Part shown: positions 1,045 through 28,995 of the stretch, in pieces
How positions within the stretch are numbered: position 1 is the stretch's first letter
Layout: every line of letters starts with the position of its first letter
Assembly: GCA_021463145.1 (NCBI GenBank)
Contig: JAJTWZ010000024.1
Coordinates: forward strand, 1-57,097
Reading direction: 5' to 3'
Origin: Blastocatellia bacterium
GTDB lineage: Bacteria > Acidobacteriota > Blastocatellia > UBA7656 > JADIYM01
DNA: 57,097 nucleotides
The notes under the pieces: generated by a model
What the model was told of the DNA's origin: nothing
Seen by the model: the letters and a program-made list of their open reading frames with translations, nothing else
Databases searched by the model: none
Translations under genes and position numbers: made by a program

Positions 1045-4000
1045 TCAATTGGCCACAAGCACTTCAACAGGGTCCCGAGGCGGTAAGCTCGAGAGCAAGA
1101 CCTGCCGTTCCGTGTCAGATAGAGCGAAGGCGTGCTCGACTAACTCGTTCAGGAGTAGTTCACTCCGGGCACCAGTGTGCTCTCCTTTAACGTGGCCAGC
1201 ACCGACCAATTCTCGCGCGAGCCGTGAGATGTCGGCACGTAACGCGTCGGACACGATGGGGACTGGCAGTCGCTTCAAGAACTGCACGTCCACACTCAAC
1301 CCCTCGTCTTTCATGTGCTGAAACGTGCGGTTGATTATCCACCAAGTCACGCGCGAGTTGAGAATCCCAAGCAAGTAAAGGTCCTCAGTTGGAATCAGGA
1401 TAACCTTGTTGTTAATGTAGTGTGCCCCGTCGTCGAACGCGAATTGCGAGTAGTATGCGATACACTGGACGATGACTTTGGGCTTCTCGAAGTCTCCGTA
1501 ATAGTCGCAGGCTCGCAATTCCCACCAATACTTGCCTTGGTCCTGCCGGGCGCGAAGTGGCCGCTCAAATTGCTTCAAGTATGCGTGAACAGATGGATGC
1601 GTTGCAGCGAAGATGGCTTCGGCTTCATTCGCGTCCGTTGCATTCGACCACGGCCAAGTCCGATTCTGACTGGAGGGGATCACTATGTGCCACTGTTCGC
1701 TCCAACTTGGAGCCCAGCGCTTCACGTCACGACCTCGTAGCAACTTCTTGAAGAGTGGTTCTGAACTGGGATTCGCAGCAAGTATTGCGTTGCGCAACGG
1801 AGTCTCAACGTAGAACGCGTCATTGAACCCAGTCAACAGCCCTCTGAGAAGTGGTCTCTGGAGCACTGACTCTAAGGGCCGGCCGGTTGTAATGAGGCGA
1901 GACAGCAGGCTACTCACGTCGGAGTTCTCAAGGTGCCATCGATCCTCGGTCAAATTGCTATGAGCCACCTCAACCACGCGCGTCCGAATGAGGTCCGGCA
2001 AAAGCTGGCTCTCGCGGTCAGAGTCATGTGCTTGAACGAAACGTGAGATCTCAGAATCCGATACACGAGAAGAGGCCGGCTCGAGTATGACGGCCGCGGG
2101 GAAGGTGTCCGCATCAGAGAAGAGATTGCGCGAGTGGCCAAAGTCGATCAGCAAGTGCACCCGACAGCGTTGGCGGAGGAACTTGCGTAAGTTCACGGCG
2201 TAACTTGCGCGGAACCACTTATTGGGCGTGAGCATTGCGACGCGGCCATGCGGGCGGCACAAGAGCACGCTGAGTTCAAGAAAGTAGGCCGAGGAGTCCG
2301 CAGTGCCAGTGAAACACTCGAATAAGGGTAGTAGTCGCTTAATTGGCCTGAGCATCTCCTGCCGAATCCAGGGGGGATTGCCGATCATGCAGTCGAAGCC
2401 ACCGTTGGCGACGACTTCCGGAAATGCCAGATGCCAGTGGAAGAACTGGAAATGGCTTGAGAGACGGTCAACTTCCGCCTGTTGAGCGGACGAGAGCGTG
2501 GTAGCGTCGGCTTCGAGTCGCCGGATAGTATCGGTTGTTATCGGCTCCGATGTACCGTTGGGGCGCTTCCGGCACACGAAAGCAGCGCAATACGCGTCAC
2601 CTACGAGCTGGGCGTGCTTATACTCCGCTGACACGATGAGCCTGCTGAATTGCTCAGCCTTGTGTCGCACGTCGCCCAGCGTGTCATCCGGCGTCGCATC
2701 GATGCTACGTCCGCGATCAGCGAGCGCGCCGAACTCGTCCACTCGGTCGGCCTCCATAAGATGCAACATATTCGCCTGGCCGTCGCGTTCTCTCCTGTTG
2801 CGCCGCTTCAGTTCCGAGCAGAACGTCTTGTCGTCGCCCTCATTGCTGATGAAGGCATCGTCCGGCAGCCCCCTGGCGATGTGTTGGGAAGTGGCGCCGA
2901 GCAAACTGTTCCCAACGCGTATGTGGTGGTCCAAAAAAGAGAGCGGTCGTCCGGGTTCTAGCGCTTCAAGCCAGAGGCTTACTCGGCAGAGCTCGGCCGC
3001 CATAGGGTTGATATCCACACCATACAGACAGCGGCCGATCACATCTCGAAGAGCGTGTTGATAAAGGAGCGGTGACGGCTCACTCTCACCATCACCGAGC
3101 GAACGCACCCGCGCTAGGTGTCGAGCCAAGCGATGCGCCGAGCCGACCAGAAAGTGGCCTGACCCGACAGCCGGGTCGCAGACCCTGAGCGCCAGTATCG
3201 CCATCTCCGCGTCGACTCCAACCTTGCCATCAATTGCGACTTCGACCACTGGGTCGAGCGCAGAATCGAGCAATGTCTGCACTAGGGAATCTGGCGTGTA
3301 GTATGAGCCTGAGGTCTTGCGCTCGTTGCCAGCAAGCTCGACAAAACTGAATCGAGCACCGTCAGAACTGATCTGCGGTGTGAGCGCTAGAAGCCCCTCG
3401 TAGACACCGCCCAACTCTTCTGCCCCGAGATTCCGATAGTCCACTGGCCGAAGCATTCTGCCCTGTCTGGTGAACGCAAGCCTGCGTAACGCCTCGAGCA
3501 GATCGTAGTTGGCAAGGTGCGCGTCATTGAGCACAATTGTGAACTTGGGATTCCAAAGAAAGCTTCCGAGCGCGGGGAGAGCCAAGCTCTTTCGCGTCGC
3601 CGCCGAGTACTCGTTGCCCGAAAGTGCCCCTACGAGCAGCTGAAACTGTTGCCACAGATCGCCGTGGCGGCTGCCCTTGATCTTGCCGGCCATCTCGCGC
3701 AATCGCGCAGTGCTGTAGTAGGCGGAGTAACGCTCACGCGCCATTCTTCCGGCGTCGGAATCATCTGGAGGATGGAGTAGCGGTTGACCTTCCAGCGTCC
3801 GGTCTTCGGCAACGAACAGAAAAATGAGCCGGTAGACAACTCGCAGGAGCTGTCCGTGAAAGTCGGCAAGTGGTAACTGACCGGTCTGGAGCGCTTCACG
3901 CAGATCCGCGTTCTTCGGGTGGCTCGTGAATCCTTCACCAAGGATCTGGAGAGCGCGCTCGACGCCTCCGCGCAGCTCACCTAGGGCGCGGGTGCCCTGT

Positions 4001-4716
4001 TCTTCCGCGAGCTTCGTCCACTGCTCCAGCCAGCAGAATTCTGGCCCCTTGCCCTCGCGAGGGGTGAATCGACTTGCGTGCACCAAGAGCCACAGGACCA
4101 CGAAATCGGAAAAGACCTCGCCTGCGAACATTGCTTCGATGTCGAACTCGAGATAGGACTGTCGCGAGAGAGCGACGTTGTCTCGCAGGACTCGCAGTCG
4201 TAGTCCGTTCGACACGATGGCCCAGAGATGAGACTCGCTCCGGTTCAAAAGCTCCTGCACCAAGCCGTGGGGATTGACCCTGGCAGCACCCCTTGCACCG
4301 CCGGCCCTGCGGTCGAGGCTCAGGCCGCATCCGACGAGGTGTATCGGGACCGGGCCAAGAAAGCGGTTGATGGCGTAAGTGGTTTCTCCGAGCTTAGGTC
4401 CCGCACTTGTCGGGAGCTGGCCAAACCCGAGCTCGCGCAACAGTGGCAGACTCCATCTGTCATTGGTGAGACCGGTGCCCGAGTCACCTGGCGGAAGTCC
4501 AGCGGCCGCAGCGGAGAACTCGGCCCAGTGTTTGCGCAGCCGGTTCCAGGACTGCGTGATTACCTCATTGAGCCGCTCGCCTTGCGGCAGGCCGTAGTCC
4601 TCGGGCCGCGTTCCATCGATCTTCGCCTTGGTTTCTATGACTCGGCGCAGAAGGTCCGGTGGCAGCAAACCACCTTCTGATCGAACCGTCTGGAATTCGT
4701 TCGTGCGACGTGCCAT
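1045..4716 (-). CDS. Eco57I-like N6-adenine DNA methylase of a helicase-methylase defence operon
   Basis: Protein of 1223 residues. The SAM-binding motif I is CDPAVGSGHFLVGSAHR (about 512-528), an acidic motif II-like YGVDINPMA lies at 565-573, and the catalytic motif IV is NPPW (780-783), preceded by the HFQFFHWHLAFPEV lead-in typical of Eco57I/PglX-type enzymes. The segment ERKTSGSYYTPDSLV before motif I is also typical. The C-terminal third (YLLGILNSRVTWWII region) looks like a TaqI-type target-recognition domain. The likely role is methylation of host DNA so the partner helicases spare it. It starts two bases after the SNF2 gene stop, so it is the last gene of the operon. GC content is visibly lower than in most of the window. 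No clear nuclease motif was seen in the N-terminal half. Confidence 0.88.
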   Translation of the reverse strand: MARRTNEFQTVRSEGGLLPPDLLRRVIETKAKIDGTRPEDYGLPQGERLNEVITQSWNRLRKHWAEFSAAAAGLPPGDSGTGLTNDRWSLPLLRELGFGQLPTSAGPKLGETTYAINRFLGPVPIHLVGCGLSLDRRAGGARGAARVNPHGLVQELLNRSESHLWAIVSNGLRLRVLRDNVALSRQSYLEFDIEAMFAGEVFSDFVVLWLLVHASRFTPREGKGPEFCWLEQWTKLAEEQGTRALGELRGGVERALQILGEGFTSHPKNADLREALQTGQLPLADFHGQLLRVVYRLIFLFVAEDRTLEGQPLLHPPDDSDAGRMARERYSAYYSTARLREMAGKIKGSRHGDLWQQFQLLVGALSGNEYSAATRKSLALPALGSFLWNPKFTIVLNDAHLANYDLLEALRRLAFTRQGRMLRPVDYRNLGAEELGGVYEGLLALTPQISSDGARFSFVELAGNERKTSGSYYTPDSLVQTLLDSALDPVVEVAIDGKVGVDAEMAILALRVCDPAVGSGHFLVGSAHRLARHLARVRSLGDGESEPSPLLYQHALRDVIGRCLYGVDINPMAAELCRVSLWLEALEPGRPLSFLDHHIRVGNSLLGATSQHIARGLPDDAFISNEGDDKTFCSELKRRNRRERDGQANMLHLMEADRVDEFGALADRGRSIDATPDDTLGDVRHKAEQFSRLIVSAEYKHAQLVGDAYCAAFVCRKRPNGTSEPITTDTIRRLEADATTLSSAQQAEVDRLSSHFQFFHWHLAFPEVVANGGFDCMIGNPPWIRQEMLRPIKRLLPLFECFTGTADSSAYFLELSVLLCRPHGRVAMLTPNKWFRASYAVNLRKFLRQRCRVHLLIDFGHSRNLFSDADTFPAAVILEPASSRVSDSEISRFVQAHDSDRESQLLPDLIRTRVVEVAHSNLTEDRWHLENSDVSSLLSRLITTGRPLESVLQRPLLRGLLTGFNDAFYVETPLRNAILAANPSSEPLFKKLLRGRDVKRWAPSWSEQWHIVIPSSQNRTWPWSNATDANEAEAIFAATHPSVHAYLKQFERPLRARQDQGKYWWELRACDYYGDFEKPKVIVQCIAYYSQFAFDDGAHYINNKVILIPTEDLYLLGILNSRVTWWIINRTFQHMKDEGLSVDVQFLKRLPVPIVSDALRADISRLARELVGAGHVKGEHTGARSELLLNELVEHAFALSDTERQVLLSSLPPRDPVEVLVAN

Positions 4717-4718
4717 GA

Positions 4719-7550
4719 CTAATCTAGCTTCGGCAACAGGAGGTAGGCCCCGAGAATGTCAACGGGCAGGACCGGCTGGACGGAAACGTGCCCTCTTGAG
4801 CGTGCTGCCTCGCGCACGCGCTCGTGCGCCGTAAGCTGTGCATCGGCACGAACCGCCGAAATCGGTTCGAGCGCTCGCCGGAGCTTCGGCAGGTCGTCGA
4901 TCAGGAGGCCGATCTGCTGGTCGATTGCCGTGGGTATCAGGTTGCGCCCGGGTCGCGCTGACAGTAGTTGTTCGCCCTCATCAATCGCCAGCCAAGTCGG
5001 CGCGTCAGCCGAGCCTGTACACGCCAATGGGACGATCTCCTCACAGAGAATCGTCTCCGCATCGGTTCCAGTGACGTGAAGGTGGTAGCGGAATCGGGCC
5101 ACGAGAAGTATCGAGCGGACATCGACAGCCGATGTCGAGATCACCCCGCAACGCGCCGCCACAGGACGGGCATCACGCGCCACCGGGTCGAGCGCCTGAT
5201 CGAGCGCCCAGCTGGCGAGGCCCTCGATGATAGGACTGGTTCGCCCGAGATAGATCTCACCCTCTTCCAGCGGAAGATCGAACCGGCCAATGAACGGATC
5301 GTCGCGACCGATCGCCTGGCGCAGGGCTCGCGGCGTCTCCAGGCTAAGTTGAATTTCAATGGCCTTGCCTCGGGCCTGAAGCGGGACGGTCGCAGCCTGC
5401 ATGACGCTCCCGAAAAAGCGGTCGACGTCCTCACTGCCGCCGATTGCCGAGCGCACGGCCTGCAATTCCACGGCGACGGCGTCGGGACTCAGTGTGTGCT
5501 GGGCAAAACGTGATCGACTCACCTTCTCGCGATCCCGTGCGCTTTCCCATTCGGCATGAATGGCCTTCTTCATCGGTTCGAGATCGTGAATGAACTCGAA
5601 CTTCATCTGAGGCAATTCGGGTTTGCTCCGCTCATGAAAGAGCGCGCCCTCGAACAGCGCCTTGGCAATCTGTTCGCTCGACCCGGGCACTGCGACCGTC
5701 ACCCCCAAGGCGCTCTTGATGCTCTTGTGCTTGCGGATCAGCACGTCGAGGATCACGCCGTCGATCGGATTATCCGTGCCGTAATACGTAACGACACGAA
5801 CCTCGGGCTTCTCCTGCCCAAAGCGGTCAACACGGCCTTCTCGTTGCTCGTGGCGAGTCGGGTTCCAGGCGAGGTCGTAGTGCAGGACCGCGTTGAAGTG
5901 CTGCTGCAGGTTGATCCCCTCCGACAGGCAATCGGTACAGACGAGGACGTAGTTGCCCGGTTCGGCAACAAGCGCGGCAATTCGCGCTTCACGCTCGGCC
6001 GGAGGGAGCAGGCCGGTTACAGCTTCGACCCGCACTTTCGAAGGCAGGGCCTCGCGCAACTGCGCCGCCACGTACTCGGCGGTATCCACGAAGCGGCAGA
6101 AGACAACAGGCTCGAAGCCGTCCTTGAGAAGCGCCTTGATCTCGCGAACGGCGCCCTGAAGTTTGTGGTCGGCCTCAGGGGGCAGCGATTCAGCCCGCCG
6201 GGCATATTCCAACAACTTCCGTCGAGTGCCATCACTGCCGTCCTCGTTGTCAGCACCTGGGCTGAAGTCGAGTGTGATGACATCATCCGCATCGTCCTGG
6301 TCGAGCACCGTGCGCCGGCCGACATCGTCAACTTCCTCTTCATCCACCTGGTCGACAGCGGCTCGGCTGCGGAGCGTCGCAGCGGCAGCAGCCGGACTGG
6401 ATGACACGCACCGGAGCAGCGCGAGCGCCGACCAGTACCTGACTCTTCGCCTGCGCTCACCGTCCTCTTCCGAAACATAGTCGCGCGCGAACGAGAGAAT
6501 GTCGTCGAACAGCTCGCGGTACTTTGGATGAAACGTATAGGTCGTTTCCTTGTCCTTTCGATCGGGGAACGCCGTGTCTGTCTCCAGATAGTGCCGTATA
6601 TCGGCCCGGCGTCTTTGAACCAGATGGCGAGCAAGCCTCCGGCGGATTCCCTCTCGATCTGCCCTGTCGAGATCGGTCGGCACGTCCTTGAACTCGCTGT
6701 CGAGCAGGCTCAGCAGCGACCGGAACGCATCCTCGTTGCCGCTGTGTGGAGTGGCGGTCACCAGAACAAGATTCCGTGATTTGTCCTCCGCGATGCGACG
6801 CAGGAGCTCAAATCGCTGCTGGCGCCCGCGACCAACTCCGCCTGCCAGCGTACAACCGTGCGCCTCGTCGACAATGACGAACTCGGGACATTTCAATATG
6901 AAGTCTTCAGCGTGTCGTGAACTCTTGATGAAGTCGGTCGAGACGATCGTGAACCTATGCCGATCAAAGACGGATACCCCGATCGGAAGGTCGCGCTCGA
7001 GGCGCTGAATGGTACTGCTCAAGATCAGCTCGGCATCGATATGGAACTTCTCGGCGAGCTCGCGCTGCCACTGTTCGGCAAGATGCGGCGGGCAGAGGAC
7101 GGTCGCGCGACGGATTTCGCCGCGATCGAGAAGCTCGCGGGCAACCAGCGCGGCCTCGATCGTCTTGCCGATACCGACGTCATCAGCAATCAGAAGACGG
7201 ATTGGATCGAGCTTGAGCGCCATCATGAGCGGCACGAGCTGATAGGGACGCGGCTCGACAGCGATTCGGCCGAAGCTGCGGAATGGACCGGCAGCTGCAC
7301 GCGTCGACAGCCTCGCCGCGTCACGCAACAGCCGGCCCGACGAGAAGTCGCCAACATCGTCGCGCGTTGGAAGCTGGAATTCGGCCGACTGCACCGGTTC
7401 GATGGCGGGAATGATCCCCGTGACCTCCTCATCGAGGCCGCCGACGGGTCGAGCGATCAAGAGTTCATCGGTTGATTCGGGCAACACAACCCATTCGCGT
7501 CCGCGTGCGTGGATGAGAGTGCCAGGCTTTGAGAGTGCAGGGGTGCTCAT
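4719..7550 (-). CDS. SNF2-type helicase/ATPase (DrmD-like)
   Basis: Protein of 943 residues. Motif I is ADDVGIGKT (122-130), motif II is DEAH (228-231), and the C-terminal helicase lobe carries [11 protein letters not shown] and the motif VI-like [16 protein letters not shown] pattern of SNF2/HepA-like enzymes. It is the size and type of the SNF2 protein (DrmD) of class 1 DISARM, and also fits the ATPase of helicase-methylase-ATPase loci. It overlaps the upstream helicase gene by four bases (ATGA) and ends two bases before the methylase start, so the three are almost certainly co-translated. It probably translocates on DNA as part of target recognition or destruction; that step is inferred from the families, not shown. 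Confidence 0.87.
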
Positions 7551-10500
7551 ACGGTTGGGACCCCGAATATGTCTGGATGCTGACGAAAAATCGCTTCCCA
7601 GTCGGCCTTGTGGTGAAACCGGACGACGATGTAGCCCGCGACCATCAGTCGCTTCGTGACTTCTTCATCGAGGATGATCTGATCAGCTTCGTCGTGTGGT
7701 GGACCGTCGACATAAACCGCGGCGTTGTATTCTCTATAGTAGAAGTCCGGTTGCGTCGAGCACCTCTCGATCAGGAACTGGGCATCGCTCGGCGGACGAA
7801 GCATGAGTCTGTCGAGTTCGTCGAGCCAGCGCTTCTCTAGCTGGCTGTCGCATCGCTTTCGCAACGCTGCCAGGCGTTCCACCCGCGTCCCTGCGCCGCC
7901 GGAAGGTCGGCATTCGGACTGAGTGAGCTCCGCGAGCAGATCTCGAATCAGATAGCGATCAAGGTCCTTGTGGTCCGGCTGGTTGCCATAGTCAAGCAGG
8001 CACTCGTAGCATGCCTTGCCGCACGTTTGAGCGGCCTTGTCTTCGAGCGTGTCTGGATCGAAGTGGCAGATCTCGAGCGCACGTCGCGCGAGCAGCGGCA
8101 GTGAGGATGGATCCTCGGCGATCTGTCGTAGGACGCCCGCGCCGCCTTCAGAAGATTCATAGAACAGGATCTCCTGCCGATCGGTCGGCGACGGCATCGG
8201 CTCGCACGCGAGCTCGCGCGGTTCGAGCTGGAAGTGCTTCTGAATCGCTTCCTTGAAAGCGGACTGGAGACTTGCCATCTTCGGGCCAGACCCGGGCGGT
8301 TCGAATCGCATCAGGAGTGCATTCTTGGTGTCCTTGACGTACGGAACCACTCGCTGGACTCGTGACTGCGCCGTGGCGTCATCGGCGTCCTGCTCGTCGG
8401 CCTTGTTGGCGGCCCAGTAGCCGCGCTCCAGGTCGAGGTTGAATCCAGGCGGCTGGTTACCGGTCTGGTTGGCCCATCCCAGGTTGATGCGGTACAGATC
8501 TGTCGCGTCACCGTAGCTGAGCCGCATCGCCACGTTGTTACCGACAACGACCTCGGCATCCTTTCGGTCGAGCTTCCCGCCAACCTCCGGGAAGCGGTAG
8601 GACGAGACGAGCTTGTACCCGAAGCGCTGGCGTTCCTCCTCATCGCACGTGATTCGCTGCGCAAGCTTCAAGCTCACGTTCTGAAGGTGGACGAGATTGT
8701 CGATCCTCGCGGGGCCCTCAAGAGCTGAACCACATCGGTCGCACACTTCCGTCAGGTTGTTGCCCTGTTCGAGGTGCGCGTAGCCGCATTTCGGGCATCG
8801 CTTCATCGTGGCGGTCACCAGGTCGTGCGTCGCTTCGATGTCGTCCGAGCCGAAGTCGAGGTTGACCTTGAAGACGCGGTAGCGAGCGCCTTCGTGGTAG
8901 ACCAGCGCGCGCGGCCCGAATTCCGAGATCGCAAGGAACCTCGGGCGAGACACGAACTCGTCACGGCCCTTGCGTTGGCGCCTTCCAGGCACATAGGCGG
9001 AAAGCGGAAGACGCGGGAAGTTGTAACCAGGCAGGAAACCCTCAGCAGCAAAGTACCGATACGAGTAGAAGTCGCCTTCGAAGACGCCCTCCGCTTCCGT
9101 CAGAAGTCGAATCTGGCTTTCGGCCTGTGCACGGAGACGCCTCGAGTGGTTGCGCTCCTCCTCCGGCCGCGAGTGGTCCCCGATGATCTTGTGATGCAGC
9201 TCTCGCTGTCTGAGTGCCGCGCGATAAAGTCCGCGCCAACGCTCGCACGAGGAATCGAATGCGCGTTCAATCTGGTCGAGCGTCTCCGTCGTCCATTTCT
9301 CGTGGAACCAAGCCGTCGATTCAAGTTCCTCCTGGATGCTCGCCACAAGGAGGTTGGCCTTTGCGAGTGCTGCCGCACGGTGAACCGGGTTCTTGAGCTC
9401 GCTTATGAGTACCGCTTTGACCGGAAGAGCGTACTTGCCTTCGAATGGCGCGAGCTCGAGCACGGTAGTAAGTGTCTTTCCCAAGTCGGGTTTGGCCAAC
9501 TCGAGCCAGATTGCGTGGATGTGAGACCGAACGAGATCGCGGTTACGAATGTCGATGCGCGGCGGGGCCACGACGCCGGCGACCATCTTGTTCGGTTCGC
9601 GGAAGTAGTACTGGTCGTGCGGGCTTCGTCCCGCGCAATAGGTGTAGACGAGTGCGGGCTGACCGCCCCGGCCGGCACGACCACTTCGTTGTGCGTAGTT
9701 GGCTGGTGTCGGCGGTACGTTTCGAAGATTGACGAGGTTCAGCTGTGCGATATCGACACCGAGTTCCATGGTCGGCGAGCAGAACAGCAAGGGAAGGTCG
9801 CCGCTTCGGAACCGATCTTCACGCTCTTCCCGGTCCTCGGACGTCACCTGAGCTGTATGTTCTCGCGCTTCCAGAACGCACTTGAGATCGACGAATGTTC
9901 GGTAACACTCAACGAAATACTGATTCACCTCGGGAGGTACTTCGCCTGCGTCAAGAAGACGTGTTCGGTCAATTGGGCGGATCTCGCCGTTGGCCGGCAG
10001 CCAGCGCAAGGCATCGACGTTGATCTGGTAGCCGGGGTCGTCGCCGTCGCTGCCGCTGCGGACCTGCTCGACGATGCCGTAGCGCTTGAGGGCCTTGAAC
10101 AGAAACCGGATTGTCGCGTCGACTTCGTCACGGCCAAAGGTCTCACCCGGCAGCACGTACTCGCGAAGCGCTCGCTTCAGATACCTGCCATATCCTCCGT
10201 ACGACGAGATCGAGAACGAGCCACGATCGGTCTTCCGCTTCGGACGGGGATACGCCACGACCGCCTTAACGAGTTCGCGCGCATCACCGAGGTACCAGAC
10301 GCTATCTTCCACGAGACGCGGCTTGGTCTGCTCGACGAGGTCGAACTGCTTCTGCGCATCCAGGACGTCCACTTTCACCGCGATGCTCCTGCGAAGCACG
10401 TCGAGAAGAGTCCGCAGCAACTGCTCTCGAGTCTCGGGTGTGCAGCGCTTGAGCAGGTCAGGTGACTCGATGAACTCCTCCGTGTGACGATCAAGGCGAA

Positions 10501-12811
10501 CAGTGAATCCCGTCTGCCACAATTCTTCTTCGCCCAGCACGCTTTCTTCGCCGGCCAACCCGTCATAGCCAAACTCGAGCAGTCCGCAGTCTTCGAGATT
10601 CGGGGCCGTCACCCGCCAGCCTCGCTGCAGATCCCGGTAGAGGTAGTACTGAATGACGCGGCGAAGGGCATCGTTCGTTGTGGCACGCGCGGGACCACGA
10701 ACGTCAGGGTCTGCGGCGTACTCCGCGAACGGGAGGTTCATCGCCTCGAAAACTCGCCCGGCCAGGTCAGCATGTCCAAGACCGGCCTCGCTCGCTTGTT
10801 GAGTGGCCTTGTGCAGCGCCGAACGAAGCAGGGCGACCTGTGTGAAGTCGTTGAAGTGTCCGGCCTGCAAAGAGGCGTCCTGCCGGTTGTCTGTAAAACT
10901 GAGGAGTTTGCGGGCTTCGGGCTTGAGATCTCGGTCTCCCTGCAGCTCGATTAGCGACCGAACCGCTAGGATCGTGGTTGCCGTGCTTCGATTGTCGACC
11001 CCGAGGGTCGCCAGCTTGGCGCGCTCGGAGCGCTGGTTCTTGGTGTATGCAACCTTGCACGACGGATTCAGACAGAAAAGGAAATTGCGATGAATCAGCG
11101 CGGCCGGAATGCCCTGGCCTTCGGACGTCACTCGGCCGCCGGCATCGATGAAGACCGGACTGGGAAGATCAGATCGACTGTCGGGTCGAACGCGCTCAAC
11201 ACCCTGGAGCGTGGGTTCCTTCATGAATGCGGGTAGTCGGTCGAGGAGGTCCGGGCTTTCCGCAGTCGGCCAGGGCGACGCGGTCGACACGAAGAGATAC
11301 GAGTCACGGCGGCCATCGTCGTTCTCCTCGCGCCGGTCTTCTCGAGGTGCGAGGACTTTGCCGTCTTCGGTTGTGACTTCTTTGACGCGATAGTAAGCAG
11401 CGCCGCAGGCCCGACAGAAGACGAGCGGAAAGAGCGGTTTGTCAGGTTCGCCCGGCTTTGCGACCTTCTTCGACATCTCGAGATGCCGGTCTTCCTCGGA
11501 CTCGATCGTGGCCCATACCGTGTCGCCGCGCGTGAAGAATTGGTGCAGCCGGAATGCGAAGATGGGAAACCGGCTCGATTCGCTCCGTCGGAGTGAGGAT
11601 CCGTTGAGGAGGTAGTCGCGCAGGACGTCCGCACATCGCGTTGGGTCCGTCCTCGTCAAGGCAGCGAGCTCTTCGGATGCACTGTGCTCGCCCTGAAGGT
11701 TTCGCGGTGCCTGACGGACGAGGCGGTCGGAGTCCTGCTCGGACCGGACACCAAAGGTGGATTCGATCCACGATGCCAACGGGTGTGTGCTGAACTCGGC
11801 GTAGGTCGCGGGGCTCGGTACGCCCGATTCGATTGCGCCTTGAAGCGCGGCTTTCACACCGGGCGCCTCGAAATCGACTTCGGGCGTTGCCCGTTCCAAT
11901 GACTCGCCAATCACCTGCGACGGCGCGACTGGAACACCAAAAATGGTCGCTGCGACTTTGGCAACTTCGGACTTCTGTTCTTCGGTCGTGCCCCCGCTCG
12001 CCATTGTGGCCGACGTGCCAACAAAGATGATGTCGTGACCGCCGAAAGCGAGGCGTGCGCGACGCATCAGGAGGGCGACGTCGGCGCCCTGCCGCCCGCG
12101 ATATGTGTGGAGTTCGTCGAGCACGAGGAAGCTGAGACCCTGGGCCGCGCGGACGAGCTCGCGATCCTCACGGCGCGTGAGCAGCAGCTCCAACATCATG
12201 TAGTTCGTGAGAATGATGTCCGGGGGATTTGCCCGGATCGCCTCCCGCACTGGCCCCTTCTCCTGACCTGTATACCTCGCGAATGTCACAGGCGGCTTCC
12301 CTTCCGGGTAACCGACATTGAGAAACTTCTTGAGTTCCTCTTCCTGGCTGTTGGCCAGTGCGTTCATCGGGTAGACCACGATCGCCTGGAGTCCACCGCC
12401 CGATCCGTTGCGAAGGACGTGATCGACGATCGGGACGATGTAGGTAAGGCTCTTGCCGGATCCTGTTCCGCTTGTCAGGACGTAGGACTTGGCCTCCTTC
12501 GCCCTGAGAATCGCCTCCTGCTGATGCCTGTGGAGAAGGAGCTTGGTGCCGGAGTGATCCGTGGCGGACTTGTCGATTCGGAAGATCCTGGAGCACTCGG
12601 GGTGAAGCGTTCCGTTTGCCACGAGGTCGTCGATGGTACCTCCCGGAAGGAAGGTCGGATTCAGTTGTAGGAGCGGTTCTGGCCAGAAGGCGCCCGCATC
12701 GAGTGACGATTCGACCGTCTGTGAAATCCGCTCATCGGCGATCTTGATGAAGCTGCGCGTGTAGCTCGAGTAGTCGCCGACGAGTCGATTGCGGAGGTCG
12801 AATACGTTCAT
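7547..12811 (-). CDS. DEAD/DEAH helicase with DUF1998 and a C-terminal Vsr/DUF559-like nuclease domain
   Basis: I chose the ATG at 12811 (1754 residues) because the preceding 51 codons show no conservation pattern and a GAGAG ribosome site lies just upstream. Motif I is TSGTGSGKS (113-121) and motif II is DELH (232-235). A second lobe has LLFCSPTMELGVDIAQ and RSGRAGRGG. Near the C-terminus the DUF1998 cysteine cluster reads CGKACYECLLDYGNQ, as in MrfA-like helicases and DrmB. The last 67 residues have a PDFYY, then AVYVDG-PPHD, then GYIVVRF pattern, which matches Vsr/DUF559 folds of the PD-(D/E)xK group and suggests the operon's nuclease. Promoter-proximal gene of the operon. DISARM normally splits helicase (DrmA) and DUF1998 (DrmB) into two proteins; here they are one. 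Confidence 0.87.
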   Translation of the reverse strand: MNVFDLRNRLVGDYSSYTRSFIKIADERISQTVESSLDAGAFWPEPLLQLNPTFLPGGTIDDLVANGTLHPECSRIFRIDKSATDHSGTKLLLHRHQQEAILRAKEAKSYVLTSGTGSGKSLTYIVPIVDHVLRNGSGGGLQAIVVYPMNALANSQEEELKKFLNVGYPEGKPPVTFARYTGQEKGPVREAIRANPPDIILTNYMMLELLLTRREDRELVRAAQGLSFLVLDELHTYRGRQGADVALLMRRARLAFGGHDIIFVGTSATMASGGTTEEQKSEVAKVAATIFGVPVAPSQVIGESLERATPEVDFEAPGVKAALQGAIESGVPSPATYAEFSTHPLASWIESTFGVRSEQDSDRLVRQAPRNLQGEHSASEELAALTRTDPTRCADVLRDYLLNGSSLRRSESSRFPIFAFRLHQFFTRGDTVWATIESEEDRHLEMSKKVAKPGEPDKPLFPLVFCRACGAAYYRVKEVTTEDGKVLAPREDRREENDDGRRDSYLFVSTASPWPTAESPDLLDRLPAFMKEPTLQGVERVRPDSRSDLPSPVFIDAGGRVTSEGQGIPAALIHRNFLFCLNPSCKVAYTKNQRSERAKLATLGVDNRSTATTILAVRSLIELQGDRDLKPEARKLLSFTDNRQDASLQAGHFNDFTQVALLRSALHKATQQASEAGLGHADLAGRVFEAMNLPFAEYAADPDVRGPARATTNDALRRVIQYYLYRDLQRGWRVTAPNLEDCGLLEFGYDGLAGEESVLGEEELWQTGFTVRLDRHTEEFIESPDLLKRCTPETREQLLRTLLDVLRRSIAVKVDVLDAQKQFDLVEQTKPRLVEDSVWYLGDARELVKAVVAYPRPKRKTDRGSFSISSYGGYGRYLKRALREYVLPGETFGRDEVDATIRFLFKALKRYGIVEQVRSGSDGDDPGYQINVDALRWLPANGEIRPIDRTRLLDAGEVPPEVNQYFVECYRTFVDLKCVLEAREHTAQVTSEDREEREDRFRSGDLPLLFCSPTMELGVDIAQLNLVNLRNVPPTPANYAQRSGRAGRGGQPALVYTYCAGRSPHDQYYFREPNKMVAGVVAPPRIDIRNRDLVRSHIHAIWLELAKPDLGKTLTTVLELAPFEGKYALPVKAVLISELKNPVHRAAALAKANLLVASIQEELESTAWFHEKWTTETLDQIERAFDSSCERWRGLYRAALRQRELHHKIIGDHSRPEEERNHSRRLRAQAESQIRLLTEAEGVFEGDFYSYRYFAAEGFLPGYNFPRLPLSAYVPGRRQRKGRDEFVSRPRFLAISEFGPRALVYHEGARYRVFKVNLDFGSDDIEATHDLVTATMKRCPKCGYAHLEQGNNLTEVCDRCGSALEGPARIDNLVHLQNVSLKLAQRITCDEEERQRFGYKLVSSYRFPEVGGKLDRKDAEVVVGNNVAMRLSYGDATDLYRINLGWANQTGNQPPGFNLDLERGYWAANKADEQDADDATAQSRVQRVVPYVKDTKNALLMRFEPPGSGPKMASLQSAFKEAIQKHFQLEPRELACEPMPSPTDRQEILFYESSEGGAGVLRQIAEDPSSLPLLARRALEICHFDPDTLEDKAAQTCGKACYECLLDYGNQPDHKDLDRYLIRDLLAELTQSECRPSGGAGTRVERLAALRKRCDSQLEKRWLDELDRLMLRPPSDAQFLIERCSTQPDFYYREYNAAVYVDGPPHDEADQIILDEEVTKRLMVAGYIVVRFHHKADWEAIFRQHPDIFGVPTV

Positions 12812-13449
12812 GGATGGGCTCTCAAGATGCGTCCGGTATGTACATCGCCGAAGACACGATTCGCGCACATTGGTTGCGCTGACGCCACCAACGGTGCCCG
12901 AGACCCACCAATCGAGGCGGCGCGTCTGCTCGGCCCGAGCCCGGCGACTGAACGCCAGACGCACGAGATCCTGTTCTCGGCCTTCGTGCTGCAGATCGGA
13001 AAGTGCGGCATAGGAGGTTCTCGTACCGCCCCGCCTTTAGTGACAGGTCAGGGATGCAGATCAGAGCCCCCTCGGCATCTGGTCCGGCGTCGCCAGTCTG
13101 AGGTCTTGATTGTGCGAGCCGACCGCGCTCACGTTCCGCCTAGTCTACCATCGACAATGGAAGACGAAACCACGAGATGAGAGCTTCGTCCGGGCGAATT
13201 TGGAGGCCTGCCACGAGGTCCTCGTCTGGCGGTGAGCTCGACTGTAAGTCGCGATGCCTGGAATTGGCGCACCTCGCGAGTTGCAGGGCGGAGGCCGGCA
13301 TTCGCTCGCGACGCAATCACGCCGACAACATCTTGATTGCATCCCCTGAATCAACCCCCTCGCACGAGTGACGGAGCAAGCACTGAAATTGTAACTTTTC
13401 GTGACAGAGATGAGTCCGATATCGAACAATACAACTCCTGACACGCGGG
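12812..13449. other. Non-coding leader and junction region of the defence operon
   Basis: No supported gene. This 638-bp stretch lies upstream of the helicase gene on the minus strand and should hold the operon promoter, but I cannot place -35 and -10 boxes with confidence. Its right side, at about 13445-13455, meets the broken end of the nitroreductase gene, so one boundary of the inserted segment lies here. No terminal inverted repeats matching the left boundary at 1041 were found by eye. Confidence 0.5.
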
Positions 13450-13775: not shown

Positions 13776-14486
13776 ATGCCGAAACTCAAGGACTCGCCAC
13801 ACGGCGCCATGGCCGCCGGGCTCCGACCCAACATGGCGACCGTCATCCGCGTCGCACAGGCAAAGCTCCCGACTCCTTACGGCTGCTCCAGCATCGTCGG
13901 TTACCGCTCGATCGACACGGGTGCCGAACAGATCGCCCTCGTATTCGGCGACGTTCAGCGCGCCCAGGCGCCGCTCGTCAGAATTCACTCGGAGTGTTTC
14001 ACCGGCGACATCTTCGGGTCCCTGAGGTGCGACTGTGGGCCGCAACTCGACGCAGCGCTTCGCGCGATTGCGCAGGACGGAACCGGCGTGCTCGTGTATC
14101 TGCGCCAGGAAGGCCGCGGCATCGGCCTGCTCAACAAGATACGAGCCTACGCGCTCCAGGAGGAGGGACTCGACACCATCGAGGCAAACGAGGCGCTCGG
14201 CTTCGCGGCTGACTCGCGGGACTATGTCGCCGGCGCGGACATTCTCCGCGACCTTGGCGCCGACCGTGTCCGCCTGCTCAGCAACAACCCCGAGAAGTTT
14301 GCGGCGCTCGAGCGCCTCGGGATCCACGTGGTCGAGCGCATTCCGGTCCTCGTGCAACCGAACGGGCACAACGTCGCGTACATGCGGACGAAGCAGTCGA
14401 GAATGGGCCATCTCTATCGCGTGGTCAGCGACGAGGTTGCATTGCCCGCACGACCACGCGACCTTGCTGCCGCGATTCCGGCGTGA
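13776..14486 (+). CDS. ribA: GTP cyclohydrolase II
   Basis: Protein of 236 residues, full length for RibA. It opens GTP and releases formate and pyrophosphate to give 2,5-diamino-6-ribosylamino-4-pyrimidinone phosphate, the first step of riboflavin synthesis, in the cytosol. The zinc cysteines are C74, C85 and C87 in SECFTGDIFGSLRCDCG, and the catalytic loop is YLRQEGRGIGL (108-118). No DHBP synthase (RibB) domain is fused. The ATG at 13776 follows a GGGGAGG ribosome site at good spacing. An additional N-terminal stretch before about residue 20 is less conserved. The neighbours downstream are not riboflavin genes, and no FMN riboswitch was recognised upstream. Confidence 0.95.
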   Translation: MPKLKDSPHGAMAAGLRPNMATVIRVAQAKLPTPYGCSSIVGYRSIDTGAEQIALVFGDVQRAQAPLVRIHSECFTGDIFGSLRCDCGPQLDAALRAIAQDGTGVLVYLRQEGRGIGLLNKIRAYALQEEGLDTIEANEALGFAADSRDYVAGADILRDLGADRVRLLSNNPEKFAALERLGIHVVERIPVLVQPNGHNVAYMRTKQSRMGHLYRVVSDEVALPARPRDLAAAIPA

Positions 14487-14582: not shown

Positions 14583-14873
14583 GTGTCGATTGATTATCTG
14601 AGAACGGCGGTCGCGGAGAACGACTCAGCGACGCTGATCCGATACGTTCGCCTCCACCTTGGCGACGGCAACGAAGCGGCCGGCCGCAAGGAAATCGACA
14701 AGGCCTGGGTCGAGGCTCTCAAGCTGCTGCTCGACATGCCTTCGACCGACCGGACCTTCGTCCTCGAAACCCTTTCCTCCAGGGACGCTGCGACGCTCGC
14801 GCACCTCTTCTTTCACCTTCACTTCTACCTCGTCACCCGCTCCGGAGAATGGATCCATGACGGACGCCTTTGA
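14583..14873 (+). CDS. Small protein of unknown function upstream of a selenoprotein
   Basis: A GTG start at 14583 is preceded by AAGGAG at normal spacing, giving 96 residues beginning MSIDYLRTAVAEND. The ATG at 14514 is in frame but has no ribosome site. The protein is rich in helix-forming and acidic residues and has FFHLHFYLVTR near its C-terminus; no cysteine pair, signal peptide or membrane helix is evident. Its last 17 bases overlap the start of the GrdB-like gene, so the two are likely translated together and may work as a pair. I do not recognise the family. Confidence 0.7.
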   Translation: MSIDYLRTAVAENDSATLIRYVRLHLGDGNEAAGRKEIDKAWVEALKLLLDMPSTDRTFVLETLSSRDAATLAHLFFHLHFYLVTRSGEWIHDGRL

Positions 14874-15672
14874 AACCGCGAAGCAGCTCCGCCCCGGGCT
14901 TTGGGAAACCGTCAACGAGCGTTACCCGGGGTCGATGATCACAAAGGTCGACCTCGTCCCACTTGCACCATTGCGGAAACCGCTCTCGCAGACGCGGCTG
15001 ACCTTTGTGAGCTCGGCTGGCGTCCAACCAAGGGACTCCCTTCCCTTCGACGTCGTCCACCCGGTAGGGGATTTCACCTTCCGGCGAGTCCCGTCGTCCT
15101 CGACGCCCGCCGACCTCGAGATCCACCAAATCAAGTACCCGACTGCCGGCGCGGCGCGGGACCTCAACGTCATCTTTCCCGTCGACCGGCTGAGCGAACT
15201 CGCCGAAGACGGGACGATCGGCGGGCTCACGCCGAATTTCTTCTCCTTCATCGGCTACACGATCGACCCCGCGGGCTTCGAGCGAACGCTCGCCGAGGCG
15301 CTCGCGGACGCGGTCGCCGCGGAGGGGGCCGAGGCCGTACTGCTCTGCCCTGCCTGACCGATATGACATCAGTCCGTCGCGCTCGTGCAGCGCGCAATCG
15401 AACGAAGAGGGATCCCGACGGTCTCGGTCACCGTGGCGCGCGACGTGACCGAGCGGGCTAAGCCCCCGCGCGCGCTGTTCGTACCGTTCATGATGGGGCA
15501 CCATTTCGGCGTACCGTTCCATCGCGCGCTCCAGCGGCGGGTCCTGACGGCAGCCCTCGAACGACTCGAGCTTGCCGAGCGAAGCGGCGAGATCGCGACG
15601 CTTCCGGTCACGTGGGCCGAGGCGCGGCGCCAGGGCGACGCGATCGAGCGCGAACTCGGGTTGAAACGATGA
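14857..15672 (+). CDS. GrdB-like selenoprotein with two in-frame UGA codons (UxxU)
   Basis: The frame from ATG 14857 is open to 15672 except for TGA at 15355-15357 and 15364-15366. Reading both as selenocysteine gives 271 residues with the motif CPA-U-PI-U-HQSVALVQRAIE at 164-182. This matches the glycine/sarcosine/betaine reductase selenoprotein B family, where the usual motif is UxxC-H; after it come GIPTVSVTVARD and PPRALFVPF as expected for the family. Standard gene calling splits it into a 166-residue protein and a 95-residue ORF. A 6-bp stem (15378-15394) after the second UGA is a candidate SECIS element. It sits between a small unknown gene and a nitrilase. The substrate is unknown; a redox role of the U167/U170 pair is inferred. 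If the host lacks selC, it would be a pseudogene instead. Confidence 0.82.
15378..15394 (+). promoter_or_regulatory. Candidate bacterial SECIS hairpin
   Basis: CGCGCT (15378-15383) pairs with AGCGCG (15389-15394) around the loop CGTGC. The loop begins 17 nt after the second UGA and 26 nt after the first, within the spacing known for bacterial SECIS elements (roughly 16-37 nt), and it contains a GU step. Bacterial SECIS elements are poorly conserved, so this is a structural match only. Confidence 0.5.
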
Positions 15673-15694
15673 TTCGCACGAGCGGGAGGTGAGC

Positions 15695-16639
15695 ATGTCG
15701 GAACGTGTGACTGTCGCCATCGTCCAGGCACGACCGGTGTCCATGGACCTCGCGGCAAGTCTCGAGAAGGCGCTCGCACTCGCCGGGCGCGCCGCCGACC
15801 GCGGCGCGCGGCTGATCGTCTTCGGCGAGACTTGGCTGCCCGGCTACCCCGCCTGGCTCGATTACTGCCCCGGCGCCGCGCTCTGGAACCACGCGCCGAC
15901 CAAGGACGTCTTCGCGAGGCTTCGGGCCAACAGCCTCGCCATCCCAGGGCCGGAGACTGCCGAGATCGAAGCGTTCTCGCGAGCCCGCGGCGTCACGCTC
16001 GTCATCGGCGTCAACGAGCGGGTCGACCGCGGCCCCGGCAACGGGACGCTTTACAACAGCCTCCTCACTTTCGGTCCCCACGGCAGCCTCGTCAATCACC
16101 ATCGGAAGCTCGTTCCGACCTACACCGAGCGGCTGGTATGGGGCCAGGGCGACGGGCACGGCCTTCGGGCCGTCGACACGCCCGTCGGACGCGTCGGCGG
16201 CCTCGTCTGCTGGGAGCACTGGATGCCGCTCGCGCGCCAAGCGCTTCACGTCTCGGGTGAGCACATCCACGTCGCCGTGTGGCCGACCGTAAGCGAACTC
16301 CATCAGCTGGCGAGCCGCCATTACGCCTTCGAGGGCAGGTGCTTCGTGCTCGCGGCCGGATCGCTGATGGCGGTCGCCGACCTGCCGCCTGGGCTCGACA
16401 CGCCGGCGGACCTCGCGCGACGACCCGACGACCTTCTCCTCTCAGGAGGAAGCGCAGTCATCGGGCCCGACGGGCAGTATCTCGTCGAGCCGGCATACGG
16501 CGAGGAGGCCGTGCTCGTGGCCGAACTCGACCTCGGCGATCTCGACCGCGAGCGGATGACCCTCGACGTTACGGGCCACTACCACCGACCCGACATCTTC
16601 GAGTTCACGGTGCGCCCGGGGGCGAGTCGGGAGTCGTAG
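15695..16639 (+). CDS. Nitrilase / carbon-nitrogen hydrolase
   Basis: Protein of 314 residues from ATG 15695, preceded by GGGAGG five bases away; the in-frame GTG at 15689 lies inside that ribosome site. The catalytic triad of the nitrilase superfamily is clear: Glu45 in VFGETWLPGYPAW, Lys138 in HHRKLVPTYTERLVW, and Cys172 in GLVCWEHWMPLAR. The CWEHWMP signature and the length are those of true branch-1 nitrilases, which convert nitriles to acids and ammonia, rather than amidases. It follows the selenoprotein by 22 bp and is likely in the same transcript. The natural substrate is not evident, but the pairing with a GrdB-like enzyme suggests a linked nitrogen-compound pathway. Confidence 0.92.
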   Translation: MSERVTVAIVQARPVSMDLAASLEKALALAGRAADRGARLIVFGETWLPGYPAWLDYCPGAALWNHAPTKDVFARLRANSLAIPGPETAEIEAFSRARGVTLVIGVNERVDRGPGNGTLYNSLLTFGPHGSLVNHHRKLVPTYTERLVWGQGDGHGLRAVDTPVGRVGGLVCWEHWMPLARQALHVSGEHIHVAVWPTVSELHQLASRHYAFEGRCFVLAAGSLMAVADLPPGLDTPADLARRPDDLLLSGGSAVIGPDGQYLVEPAYGEEAVLVAELDLGDLDRERMTLDVTGHYHRPDIFEFTVRPGASRES

Positions 16640-23202: not shown

Positions 23203-24978
23203 TTAGCTCTCGCGAGCGTGAGCACCCGGTCGCGCGTTGGCCTCGCTCACGCGGCGGAGCACGGGTCCGACTACAGATGCGCTCGGCGGGGACGTCATCC
23301 GAGCCATCACCTGCCGAAGGGTTGGGAATCCACCGTCCAACTGCAGTTGCTCAACGATCGCCCTGACCGTTTCCTCGAGCACCAGTTCCTCCAGGCACTT
23401 TCGCTCCCGCGTTTGCTCTTTGTAGCGAAGTGTGATGGCCCGACATCGGTCTGGGAAAAGAGAGTACGCTTCTTGAGACGCATGTACGCCGAGAGCGCCG
23501 GCAACACGCCTGCAAATGTCCCCCATGCTCGGCGCGGGCGATTCAAGTCGAGCGAACTCGAGGATCGGGAGGACGATTCGACTCTTGCGCGATTTCACGT
23601 GCGCGCGATGTCGGGCAGCGAGCTGACGCGAAAGCGCATTGTGCCTTCGATACAGCACGCCCGAGTCCACACCGCAGCGACTGGCAATCTCCTTGAGAGT
23701 CGGGGGAGGGTCCTCCGCGAGGAACCCGCGGAGATCGGTGTCTGTCACGACGTCAGCGGCTCGTTGGCTGAAGACACCCTTTACGGTCAGATCCCCGTTC
23801 GCTCGCGCCAATTTCCGCCTGTTCACGATTCGATCGCAAAGATCGTCGAAGTGCGAGTACAGAAAATCATGCCCGCAACCGAGGCCGGCTGCGATGGCAT
23901 TGAGCGTAGGAGGAGTCTCGGACGCTTCGAGGATCTGCTCGAGTCTCTCTCGAGCCACCTGTAGTGCGACGGGTCTCGGCCGTTTCGCGTACCGTCGAGA
24001 ACCAGCGATTCTCGCCTTCAATCTCGCGGCGATCTCTGGAGCGACCGTAGCTTGACCCCTCAACAGAGCCACCGGACTTACGTCGAGGATCCGTGAAACG
24101 TCGGCCAATTGAGAAAGAGTCGGCCGGCGGGATTCGTTTCGCCAGCCGACGGTCATCCCCTCTCGCCAAGACCCGAGCGCTTCAGCGAATGCCCTTCGAC
24201 CGCCGCCCACAGACTCGACCGCAATCCGATTAAGTCCCGAAGCGAAGTCCGATTGCCGCAGTGTCCCGTCGAGATCTGGGCTCGCGGCAAGCAGTGCTCC
24301 GACGATCATGGCCTGTGCGACATCCTTAGCGAACTCCCGACGCAGTGAAGGGAGAGCAGGTCTGCCGAGCCACGAGAAGCACCAAGGGCATTCCCCAACC
24401 CTCATGTGCGGGTGAAAGCCGATCGTTCCCTTTCCACAACCAGGACAGATCGTCGAAAGTGGACTCCAGTGCCGCGGGCAGACACGGACCGCTCCGAGTT
24501 CCCACTGCAACGGCATGTAAGCAATGCTCCGACTGCGTCTCCAGTCCTCGAGGCACGCCGCACACCACGCCCTCTCGGCGCGTCCAATGGCGCGATGCAC
24601 GAGTACGTCGGCGAAGGCGAGCATCGTCGTGTACCGAACACCACGCTGGCCTGTCATCTCGGCCAAGGTGGCAGCGGTCATCGCTGCCCTGCGGCCAATG
24701 CCCGCAATCCTGCATCCCGGATTGCTTGATTCCGGCCGGCGTCGGAATATCTTCTTGGTTGTGTCGCGGCTGAGGCCCGTTTCCGCGCTGACCCAAGCCA
24801 GAAGGTCCGATGGCGTAAGCGCGTGCGATGCCGCGAGCCGGCACACGTAGCTCGTGAGACCCTCAACGTATGGGAGCCCGACGGCGAAAGGCTCGATCGA
24901 GTTGAGGCGCGAACGCGGAGGCCCGACGACTCTGAGCGCCACGATTCTTTCATATTCGCGAACGGCAGTTCGTTTCAT
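23203..24978 (-). CDS. tniQ: TniQ/TnsD-type target-selection protein
   Basis: Start chosen at ATG 24978, one base past the tnsC stop, giving 591 residues; the longer frame would overlap tnsC by 125 bases. The N-terminal TniQ domain opens with PFAVGLPYVEGLTSYVCRLA and contains a zinc-finger region: WCAACLEDW, then CPRHW, CPGCG and CPWCF. The C-terminal half has repeated helix-turn-helix units (TLNAIAAGLGCGHDFLYSHF, TLKEIASRCGVDSGVLYRRH) like TnsD, so it may pick the target by sequence. It is much longer than minimal CRISPR-associated TniQ proteins (about 300-400). A decayed homologue lies at the right edge of the window. Confidence 0.85.
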   Translation of the reverse strand: MKRTAVREYERIVALRVVGPPRSRLNSIEPFAVGLPYVEGLTSYVCRLAASHALTPSDLLAWVSAETGLSRDTTKKIFRRRPESSNPGCRIAGIGRRAAMTAATLAEMTGQRGVRYTTMLAFADVLVHRAIGRAERAWCAACLEDWRRSRSIAYMPLQWELGAVRVCPRHWSPLSTICPGCGKGTIGFHPHMRVGECPWCFSWLGRPALPSLRREFAKDVAQAMIVGALLAASPDLDGTLRQSDFASGLNRIAVESVGGGRRAFAEALGSWREGMTVGWRNESRRPTLSQLADVSRILDVSPVALLRGQATVAPEIAARLKARIAGSRRYAKRPRPVALQVARERLEQILEASETPPTLNAIAAGLGCGHDFLYSHFDDLCDRIVNRRKLARANGDLTVKGVFSQRAADVVTDTDLRGFLAEDPPPTLKEIASRCGVDSGVLYRRHNALSRQLAARHRAHVKSRKSRIVLPILEFARLESPAPSMGDICRRVAGALGVHASQEAYSLFPDRCRAITLRYKEQTRERKCLEELVLEETVRAIVEQLQLDGGFPTLRQVMARMTSPPSASVVGPVLRRVSEANARPGAHARES

Positions 24979-24979
24979 C

Positions 24980-26110
24980 CTAAGTTCCGACCGGATCTCG
25001 ATTAGGATTCCTCGAACCCGGCCGCCGGCTCGAAGTCGACTTCGTGCTCGGCTTCCTTTCCCTGGACGCTGGGGTAACGCCACAAAGCCCGGCCAGCGCT
25101 TCAAGCGCCGATTCGTCAGGAATCATCCGTCGCTCTCCGTCAGCTGCCTCTGATGAAATCGAACGACACTGAGGCAGCGACAGCGCGGTCCGCTCGAGGT
25201 GTTCGAGACCGAGCGACTCACCTTCCGAGACGGCTTCCTCCAGTGCCCGTGTCAGCCAGTCCTTAAGATTGCCCACGCAACCGGCCGAATGGATCATGAG
25301 GTACTCGAACGACGCGAGAAGATCGGGCTCGTCGGCCAGCGGCAGTTGTCTCTGGAACGAGAAGACCGCTCGCTTGAATGCCTGAACGTCAGCGACGTTG
25401 TCGCCGCGGTACCTGCGGAAGTGGATCAGGGTGGACCGTCGACTCAACTGTCCGCTCAGGTTAGCCAGGTCAAGAAGTGAGTAGCTTCCCACGAGGACGT
25501 GCGTTACTCCCGTCAAGTTCGCAAGCGACTTGATCGTGTCCATCTGATCGAGAAGCCGTCTCCCGGACGCGACTTTCGCCAGATGATGCGCCTCGTCGAT
25601 GAGACATGCTTCAACCTGCCGGTGCCTGTATGCCAACTCGAGGGCATACCTTAGATCTCCTGAGCTGGCGTGCCGCCGGGCGAAACGACGGACGCCTTCC
25701 TGTTGAATCCCCTGGAGACTTCTCGGATCGAGTTTTCGACTTACAAGAGGCTCGTCGAGTGCAATCAGCGTCCTTCTGTAGAAATCGCGCCAGCTGAACT
25801 GAACGAGACCATCGGAAACGGCTTCAATCCGAATGACAGGGACCTTGCCGAGCGCCGCGGACATTGCCGCCAGCTCTCGCTCCATCATCCAGTTCTCGGC
25901 ATGCTCGAGCACCGTTGTCTTGCCTACGCCTGCCGGCCCGAGGACGATGACGATGGACCCCGGACGGGACTGAGTGAGGGCCAGTTTCAACGCTCGGTCC
26001 GTTTCCACGAGCACCGGATGTGCGATTGCGATTCGCCGGAAGTACTCGCATCGCTCTCGTGGCGAAGCCGACGTGAGCCCTTTTGGAAAAGTCCGCTCGG
26101 TGCCCATCAA
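24980..26110 (-). CDS. tnsC: TnsC/TniB-type AAA+ transposition regulator
   Basis: Protein of 376 residues. Walker A is GPAGVGKTT (58-66) and Walker B is ACLIDEAHH (167-175), followed by a sensor region LTGVTHVLVGSYSLLDLA. In Tn7-like elements this ATPase forms filaments on target DNA, links TniQ/TnsD to the transposase and gives target immunity. Its start overlaps the tnsAB stop by four bases (ATGA) and its stop is followed at once by the tniQ start, so the operon is translationally coupled. A basic, serine-rich tail (about residues 355-376) is unusual and may bind DNA. Confidence 0.88.
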   Translation of the reverse strand: MMGTERTFPKGLTSASPRERCEYFRRIAIAHPVLVETDRALKLALTQSRPGSIVIVLGPAGVGKTTVLEHAENWMMERELAAMSAALGKVPVIRIEAVSDGLVQFSWRDFYRRTLIALDEPLVSRKLDPRSLQGIQQEGVRRFARRHASSGDLRYALELAYRHRQVEACLIDEAHHLAKVASGRRLLDQMDTIKSLANLTGVTHVLVGSYSLLDLANLSGQLSRRSTLIHFRRYRGDNVADVQAFKRAVFSFQRQLPLADEPDLLASFEYLMIHSAGCVGNLKDWLTRALEEAVSEGESLGLEHLERTALSLPQCRSISSEAADGERRMIPDESALEALAGLCGVTPASRERKPSTKSTSSRRPGSRNPNRDPVGT

Positions 26111-28773: not shown

Positions 28774-28995
28774 CGACACCTCCGTAAAACGGGGGCCGAG
28801 ATCGCTAAGGGCTATCTTCCTGCACGTCGATAGTGGCGCGTCACGACCTGGAAACGCAAGTCCGGGTTCTCATTCACTTGGATCTCGATGGAACCGGACT
28901 AGGTCGAATACACGCGGCCTGACCCTTGCAGTCGTGCATGAAGCTCTCGCCGAGCTCTATCAGGGTCCTTTCACGTACGGGGTCCTACAAGTTCT

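Follow-up and report, generated by a model that had tools for sequence, protein, structure and literature searches.

How two UGA codons only nine bases apart could both be read as selenocysteine (Sec) is a mechanical puzzle, because the hairpin that recruits SelB sits within the coding region, where the ribosome unwinds it. The question is raised by a locus in the window analysed here, a 57,097 nt stretch of an acidobacterial contig, for which an earlier note had described a GrdB-like protein in a single frame at 14857–15672, broken only by the TGA codons at 15355 and 15364. The frame was borne out by the sequence. The two codons correspond to residues 167 and 170, the genuine stop is also TGA and the redox motif of the predicted protein is CPA-U-PI-U-HQS. 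As anticipated, standard gene calling splits the gene, with one mechanical ORF ending at 15357 and another starting at 15385. The features of the locus are collected in Table 1.

Table 1. Features of the selenoprotein locus, in window coordinates
Feature	Position	Strand	Remarks
RibA-type GTP cyclohydrolase II	13776..14486	+	Neighbour in the window locus only
96-aa all-helical partner protein	14583..14873	+	GTG start; 17-nt overlap with the selenoprotein start
PrdB/GrdB-like selenoprotein (predicted)	14857..15672	+	271 aa, U167 and U170; terminal TGA at 15670-15672
UGA 1 (predicted Sec167)	15355..15357	+	TGA in 47/47 distinct clade members
Rare Ile codon ATA	15361..15363	+	Codon 169, directly 5' of UGA 2
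UGA 2 (predicted Sec170)	15364..15366	+	Clade: TGA in 16, TGC/TGT in 31
SECIS-like hairpin	15378..15394	+	Stem 15378-15383 / 15389-15394, loop CGUGC 15384-15388
Nitrilase-family protein (CN_hydrolase)	15689..16639	+	Best NCBIfam model Nit6803, under its cut-off

Family membership, predicted structure and host machinery

To place the protein, profile scores were compared with the cut-offs of the respective models. The Pfam model GRDB (PF07355) gave 31.7 bits against a gathering cut-off of 22, indicating membership of the superfamily. The top NCBIfam model was PrdB (TIGR04483) with 130.8 bits (E 5e-38, residues 36–253) against a cut-off of 300, while the GrdB-type NCBIfam models scored about 42–55 bits, the glycine reductase GrdB model TIGR01917 reaching 41.8 bits against a cut-off of 602. 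As these scores lie below the equivalog cut-offs, the protein is a superfamily member rather than an established PrdB or GrdB. By profile comparison, it belongs to the selenoprotein B superfamily, nearer to PrdB than to GrdB and outside the PrdB equivalog. The earlier designation as GrdB-like was therefore right as to the superfamily but not as to the nearest relative (PrdB 131 bits versus GrdB 42–44 bits).

The protein shares with PrdB (TIGR04483) the homology over residues 36–253, the place of the UxxC motif and a similar length, but attains only 131 of 300 bits and has Sec for the second cysteine. In most PrdB-like genes the hairpin lies 9 nt nearer (upstream) than in the window gene, which is instead accompanied by a conserved 96-aa partner; a PrdA-like gene (D-proline reductase subunit) was absent among the genes common to the neighbourhoods compared. 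With GrdB (PF07355, TIGR01917/01918; glycine/sarcosine/betaine reductase), the likeness is an alignment to the C-terminal, Sec-bearing half of the models, whereas the window protein scores far under the cut-offs of TIGR01917/01918 and is without the N-terminal half.

In the predicted structure (pLDDT 93), the UxxU motif follows a strand (160–164) and stands at the start of a helix (168–182), a placement of the redox motif seen in many thiol redox sites. No meaningful relatives were found in a PDB sequence search, and a fold search with the model returned only weak matches (best E 0.016), with no solved structure fitting well. The motif suggests that the protein probably acts through a selenol/diselenide redox centre located where the helix begins.

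The genome of the acidobacterial host (5.28 Mb, 100% complete, 0.6% contamination) was searched for the Sec machinery, a check proposed in the earlier note. All four components were present: selA (558 bits), selB (338 bits), selD (340 bits) and selC (tRNA-Sec 74 bits, ARAGORN anticodon TCA). The host thus encodes SelA, SelB, tRNA-Sec and SelD, as is required of a genome with a selenoprotein. Among genomes with this gene, tRNA-Sec was above the cut-off in 11/12. The host selD (L125, G000 contig 96:22929-23858) carries an in-frame TGA of its own, suggesting that SelD itself is probably a selenoprotein in this organism.

Codon 170 among the homologues

Scanning GTDB genomes for the window gene retrieved 48 loci at 55–78% identity, distributed over Acidobacteriota, Armatimonadota, Actinomycetota, Chloroflexota, Thermomicrobiota, Gemmatimonadota, Verrucomicrobiota, Planctomycetota, Vulcanimicrobiota and Bacillota. 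After further loci had been added and duplicates removed, the clade set comprised 47 distinct homologues at ≥50% identity; two clade copies with broken frames from metagenome assemblies (L059 and L060) were left out of the counts. Position 167 is TGA throughout the clade and position 170 is either TGA (the window gene included) or a cysteine codon (Table 1), in agreement with the claim that the UGAs fall at the Sec and Cys sites of the family. No clade homologue has TGG at these codons, and none has a different frame structure, observations that would have spoken against this.

The UxxU sequences span six phyla, and most stem from metagenome-assembled genomes; one is from a complete isolate genome, Bacillus fonticola CS13. 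Explaining the distribution of UxxU on a maximum-likelihood tree takes four changes, and well-supported branches enforce no fewer than three of these. Within the Bacillaceae, two UxxU genes nest in a clade with UxxC relatives, and UxxU occurs separately in other phyla. UxxU was found in 0/74 UGA-bearing sequences of the wider PrdB-like family. A single Armatimonadaceae genome (G308) holds two UxxU copies (L019 and L049). One PrdB-like sequence with 40% identity (L142) has TGA at the first site and Asp (GAC) at the second, i.e. UxxD, possibly a matter of alignment or assembly.

Homology had been claimed to continue past the second TGA, and the sequence there was found to be under purifying selection: dN/dS 3' of UGA 2 was 0.06–0.25 across nine UxxU pairs, similar to the part 5' of it, and P204, R205 and G214 are invariant columns beyond it. 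The UGAs thus align with Sec or Cys and coding continues under selection, as expected for a selenoprotein. Taken with the 16 distinct UxxU genes, this makes error, pseudogene and plain-stop readings very unlikely. On these sequence comparisons, both UGAs are almost certainly read as selenocysteine.

Hairpin register and decoding of the two UGA codons

The loop of the hairpin in the window gene contains G-U at 15385-15386. Its centre lies at nt 32 counted, as for all genes below, from the first base of UGA 1, which is nt 23 from UGA 2, and the UGA-to-loop spacings are 26 nt and 17 nt, respectively. A hairpin at SECIS spacing had been noted earlier; the hairpin itself was confirmed, and the canonical spacing applies to UGA 2 but not to UGA 1, for which 26 nt is within the accepted range. 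The bacterial SECIS model of PMC13188914 has a UGA-to-loop distance of 16–37 nt, a loop of 3–9 nt, a G within the first two loop positions and an MFE of −7.5 kcal/mol or lower. The values of the window hairpin (spacings of 26 and 17 nt, loop CGUGC, −8.6 kcal/mol) fall within these published ranges. For the window sequence alone, the hairpin was no better than shuffles (z-scores near 0 or positive), and an equally stable hairpin arose at the same register in 7.4% of synonymous recodings of the gene. Single-sequence folding being unexceptional, the hairpin was judged by comparative tests instead.

The hairpin centre falls at nt 32 in most of the clade and within nt 23–27 in nearly all other relatives. 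It lies at nt 23 in 53 wider PrdB-like UxxC genes and in six basal clade members (L051–L056), at nt 26–27 in 18 further wider PrdB-like genes (Bacillales in all those listed) and at nt 32 in 41/41 of the remaining clade members, the shifted clade, of which 16 are UxxU and 25 UxxC. The shift from nt 23 to nt 32 is 9 nt, or three codons, equal to the distance between the two UGAs; since UGA 2 starts 9 nt after UGA 1, the shifted centre has the same offset from UGA 2 (nt 23) as the ancestral centre has from UGA 1. The ancestral position gives a spacing of 18 nt to UGA 1, which is in range, and of 9 nt to UGA 2, which is too short. UxxU occurs in 16/41 sequences with the shifted hairpin versus 0/80 other UGA-bearing sequences (Fisher about 3e-9, computed with 79 other sequences), a value that is overstated, the sequences being non-independent and the shift probably a single evolutionary event. 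With the shift probably being one event, its agreement with the distance between the UGAs could also be fortuitous. Likewise, the presence of the shifted hairpin in 25 clade sequences with UGA 1 only means that the shift alone is no proof of serving UGA 2, and the Bacillales centres at nt 26–27 indicate that the spacing is somewhat flexible in any case.

Base pairing was examined at both registers. Pairing holds in 94.9% of cells at the ancestral register, where 22 double changes were counted and the covariation score exceeds that of every one of 500 shuffles. At the shifted register, 99.5% of cells pair, with three compensatory (doubly changed) cells, all at one pair (e.g. G-C to U-A in L043 and L048). 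The sequences of the shifted clade gave no support for a hairpin at the ancestral register, where the pairing has decayed. The hairpin-forming codons 174–179 show the strongest synonymous constraint of the gene (excess codon identity 0.49 versus a mean of 0.06, sd 0.07), and this holds in low-GC Bacillaceae and in high-GC lineages. By these comparative measures, selection acts on the hairpin at the RNA level. Six genomes (G300, G301, G303, G304, G528 and G620) each hold a shifted-hairpin gene together with a distant PrdB-like gene, suggesting that a single SelB probably copes with more than one hairpin spacing within the same cell.

The codon directly before UGA 2 was also distinctive. ATA is present at codon 169 in 15/16 UxxU sequences versus 2/25 shifted-register UxxC sequences; of the Ile codons elsewhere, 12% are ATA in UxxU genes, and 0/11 of the other aligned ones in the window gene. 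In synonymous constraint, codon 169 ranks 10th of 173 columns in UxxU genes versus 109th of 162 in UxxC genes. Shared ancestry accounts for part of this pattern. As a guess, AUA might act via a pause or via release-factor competition; a pause could, for example, let SelB and tRNA-Sec reload before the second Sec insertion. It is conceivable, at slightly less than even odds, that AUA-UGA-CAY and the hairpin shifted by three codons form a dedicated one-SECIS cassette for two UGAs, in which AUA would aid the second Sec insertion and the shift would make Cys and Sec at codon 170 a one-base swap.

The best explanation of these observations, with a probability of roughly 0.8 on the sequence evidence, is a UxxU selenoprotein of the PrdB/GrdB superfamily in which both UGAs are decoded as Sec and one hairpin serves both. 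Placed 9 nt further downstream, the hairpin would still be folded, at the canonical 17 nt, when the ribosome reaches UGA 2, and UGA 1 would be decoded by the same hairpin at 26 nt, inside the accepted 16–37 nt. Historically, the shift is likely to have come first; it would have made a single-base change from TGY to TGA tolerable at codon 170, and several interchanges of Cys and Sec at this codon would have followed. The closest competitor, itself unlikely, also has Sec at both sites but lets the hairpin serve UGA 2 alone, with UGA 1 helped by another element. The E. coli-like distance of the hairpin from UGA 2, and a distance from UGA 1 that is 9 nt beyond the usual, fit this arrangement; against it, 25 clade members keep the hairpin with UGA 1 as their sole UGA, the hairpin in the ancestral register is gone and 26 nt is within the accepted range (PMC13188914).

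Two further alternatives, both improbable and about equally so, concern the reading of the second site. With UGA 2 acting as a genuine stop, or as a switch dependent on selenium, a 169-residue protein would be the main product and the full-length protein would be minor. UGA is indeed the normal stop of this same gene, and Sec codons commonly cause partial termination, but conservation over the 100 residues past UGA 2 is about as strong as before it, by the dN/dS values and invariant columns given above, and codon 170 is only ever Cys or TGA in the clade. Reading of UGA 2 as cysteine or another residue by a non-Sec tRNA (near-cognate suppression), giving a functional UxxC, would accord with Cys as the alternative residue in relatives. 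It is opposed by the confinement of UxxU to genes whose hairpin has canonical spacing to UGA 2 and by the use of TGA as the terminal codon in the window gene as well as in several further UxxU genes, which implies that UGA is not reassigned. That the gene is a pseudogene or a sequencing error has a negligible likelihood. Broken frames do occur at a few related loci (L059, L060), but an error, which the earlier note had named as a possible refutation, is excluded by 16 distinct genes with two TGAs in six phyla, one of them in a complete isolate genome, and selection is purifying on both sides of the codons.

Genomic neighbourhood and significance

Of the genes around the selenoprotein, the 96-aa protein was the most consistent, lying directly upstream in 44/48 loci with the reading frames mostly overlapping. 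Its homologues are 55–81% identical to the window copy, and its model is all-helical (pLDDT 92). It had no convincing Pfam or NCBIfam match and no meaningful PDB sequence relative, and a fold search with its model gave no matches. A nitrilase-family gene is near the selenoprotein in 19/48 loci, often directly downstream. No other conserved neighbour was found in more than four loci, and RibA is probably not part of the system. The selenoprotein probably acts together with the co-encoded 96-aa protein, and often with a nitrilase.

Elsewhere in the window, three large genes at 1045-12964 (−) resemble anti-phage defence proteins: a DrmMI/type IIG-like methylase, a DpdE-like helicase (808 bits) and a DruE-like 1805-aa helicase with an MZB domain. 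Tn7-like transposition genes at 23203-28779 (−) comprise a TniQ-like gene, a weakly TnsC-like gene and a gene for an 890-aa protein with a TnsA-like N-terminus and a TnsB/Mu C-terminus.

UxxU has been described before, in a small number of selenoprotein families that are not related to this one (PMC2398784, PMC13188914, PMC9312934). These include Prx-like 2, NF041115 metal-binding/mercuric-reductase-like and FmdB-like proteins (PMC2398784, PMC13188914), which likewise have two Sec three residues apart but belong to families unrelated to the window protein. The portions of PMC2398784 and PMC13188914 considered compare neither the hairpin positions of UxxU families nor the codons that precede their second UGA. 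PrdB and GrdB are given as UxxC only, with one Sec, in the reviews consulted. The PrdB of marine metagenomes, which are also PF07355 Sec proteins and abundant in surface-ocean data, are likewise given as UxxC only (PMC2398784). No report of UxxU in PrdB/GrdB, or of a hairpin register tracking UxxU, was found in the open-access literature, subscription papers being outside the scope of the search.

These results add a conserved two-gene family, consisting of a selenoprotein that is split by standard gene calling and its 96-aa partner. With UxxC and UxxU genes that are related to each other, hairpins in two registers and genomes of cultured Bacillaceae, the family also offers a natural comparison, in which SelB reloading, the spacing of the SECIS and the acquisition of a second Sec become directly testable.
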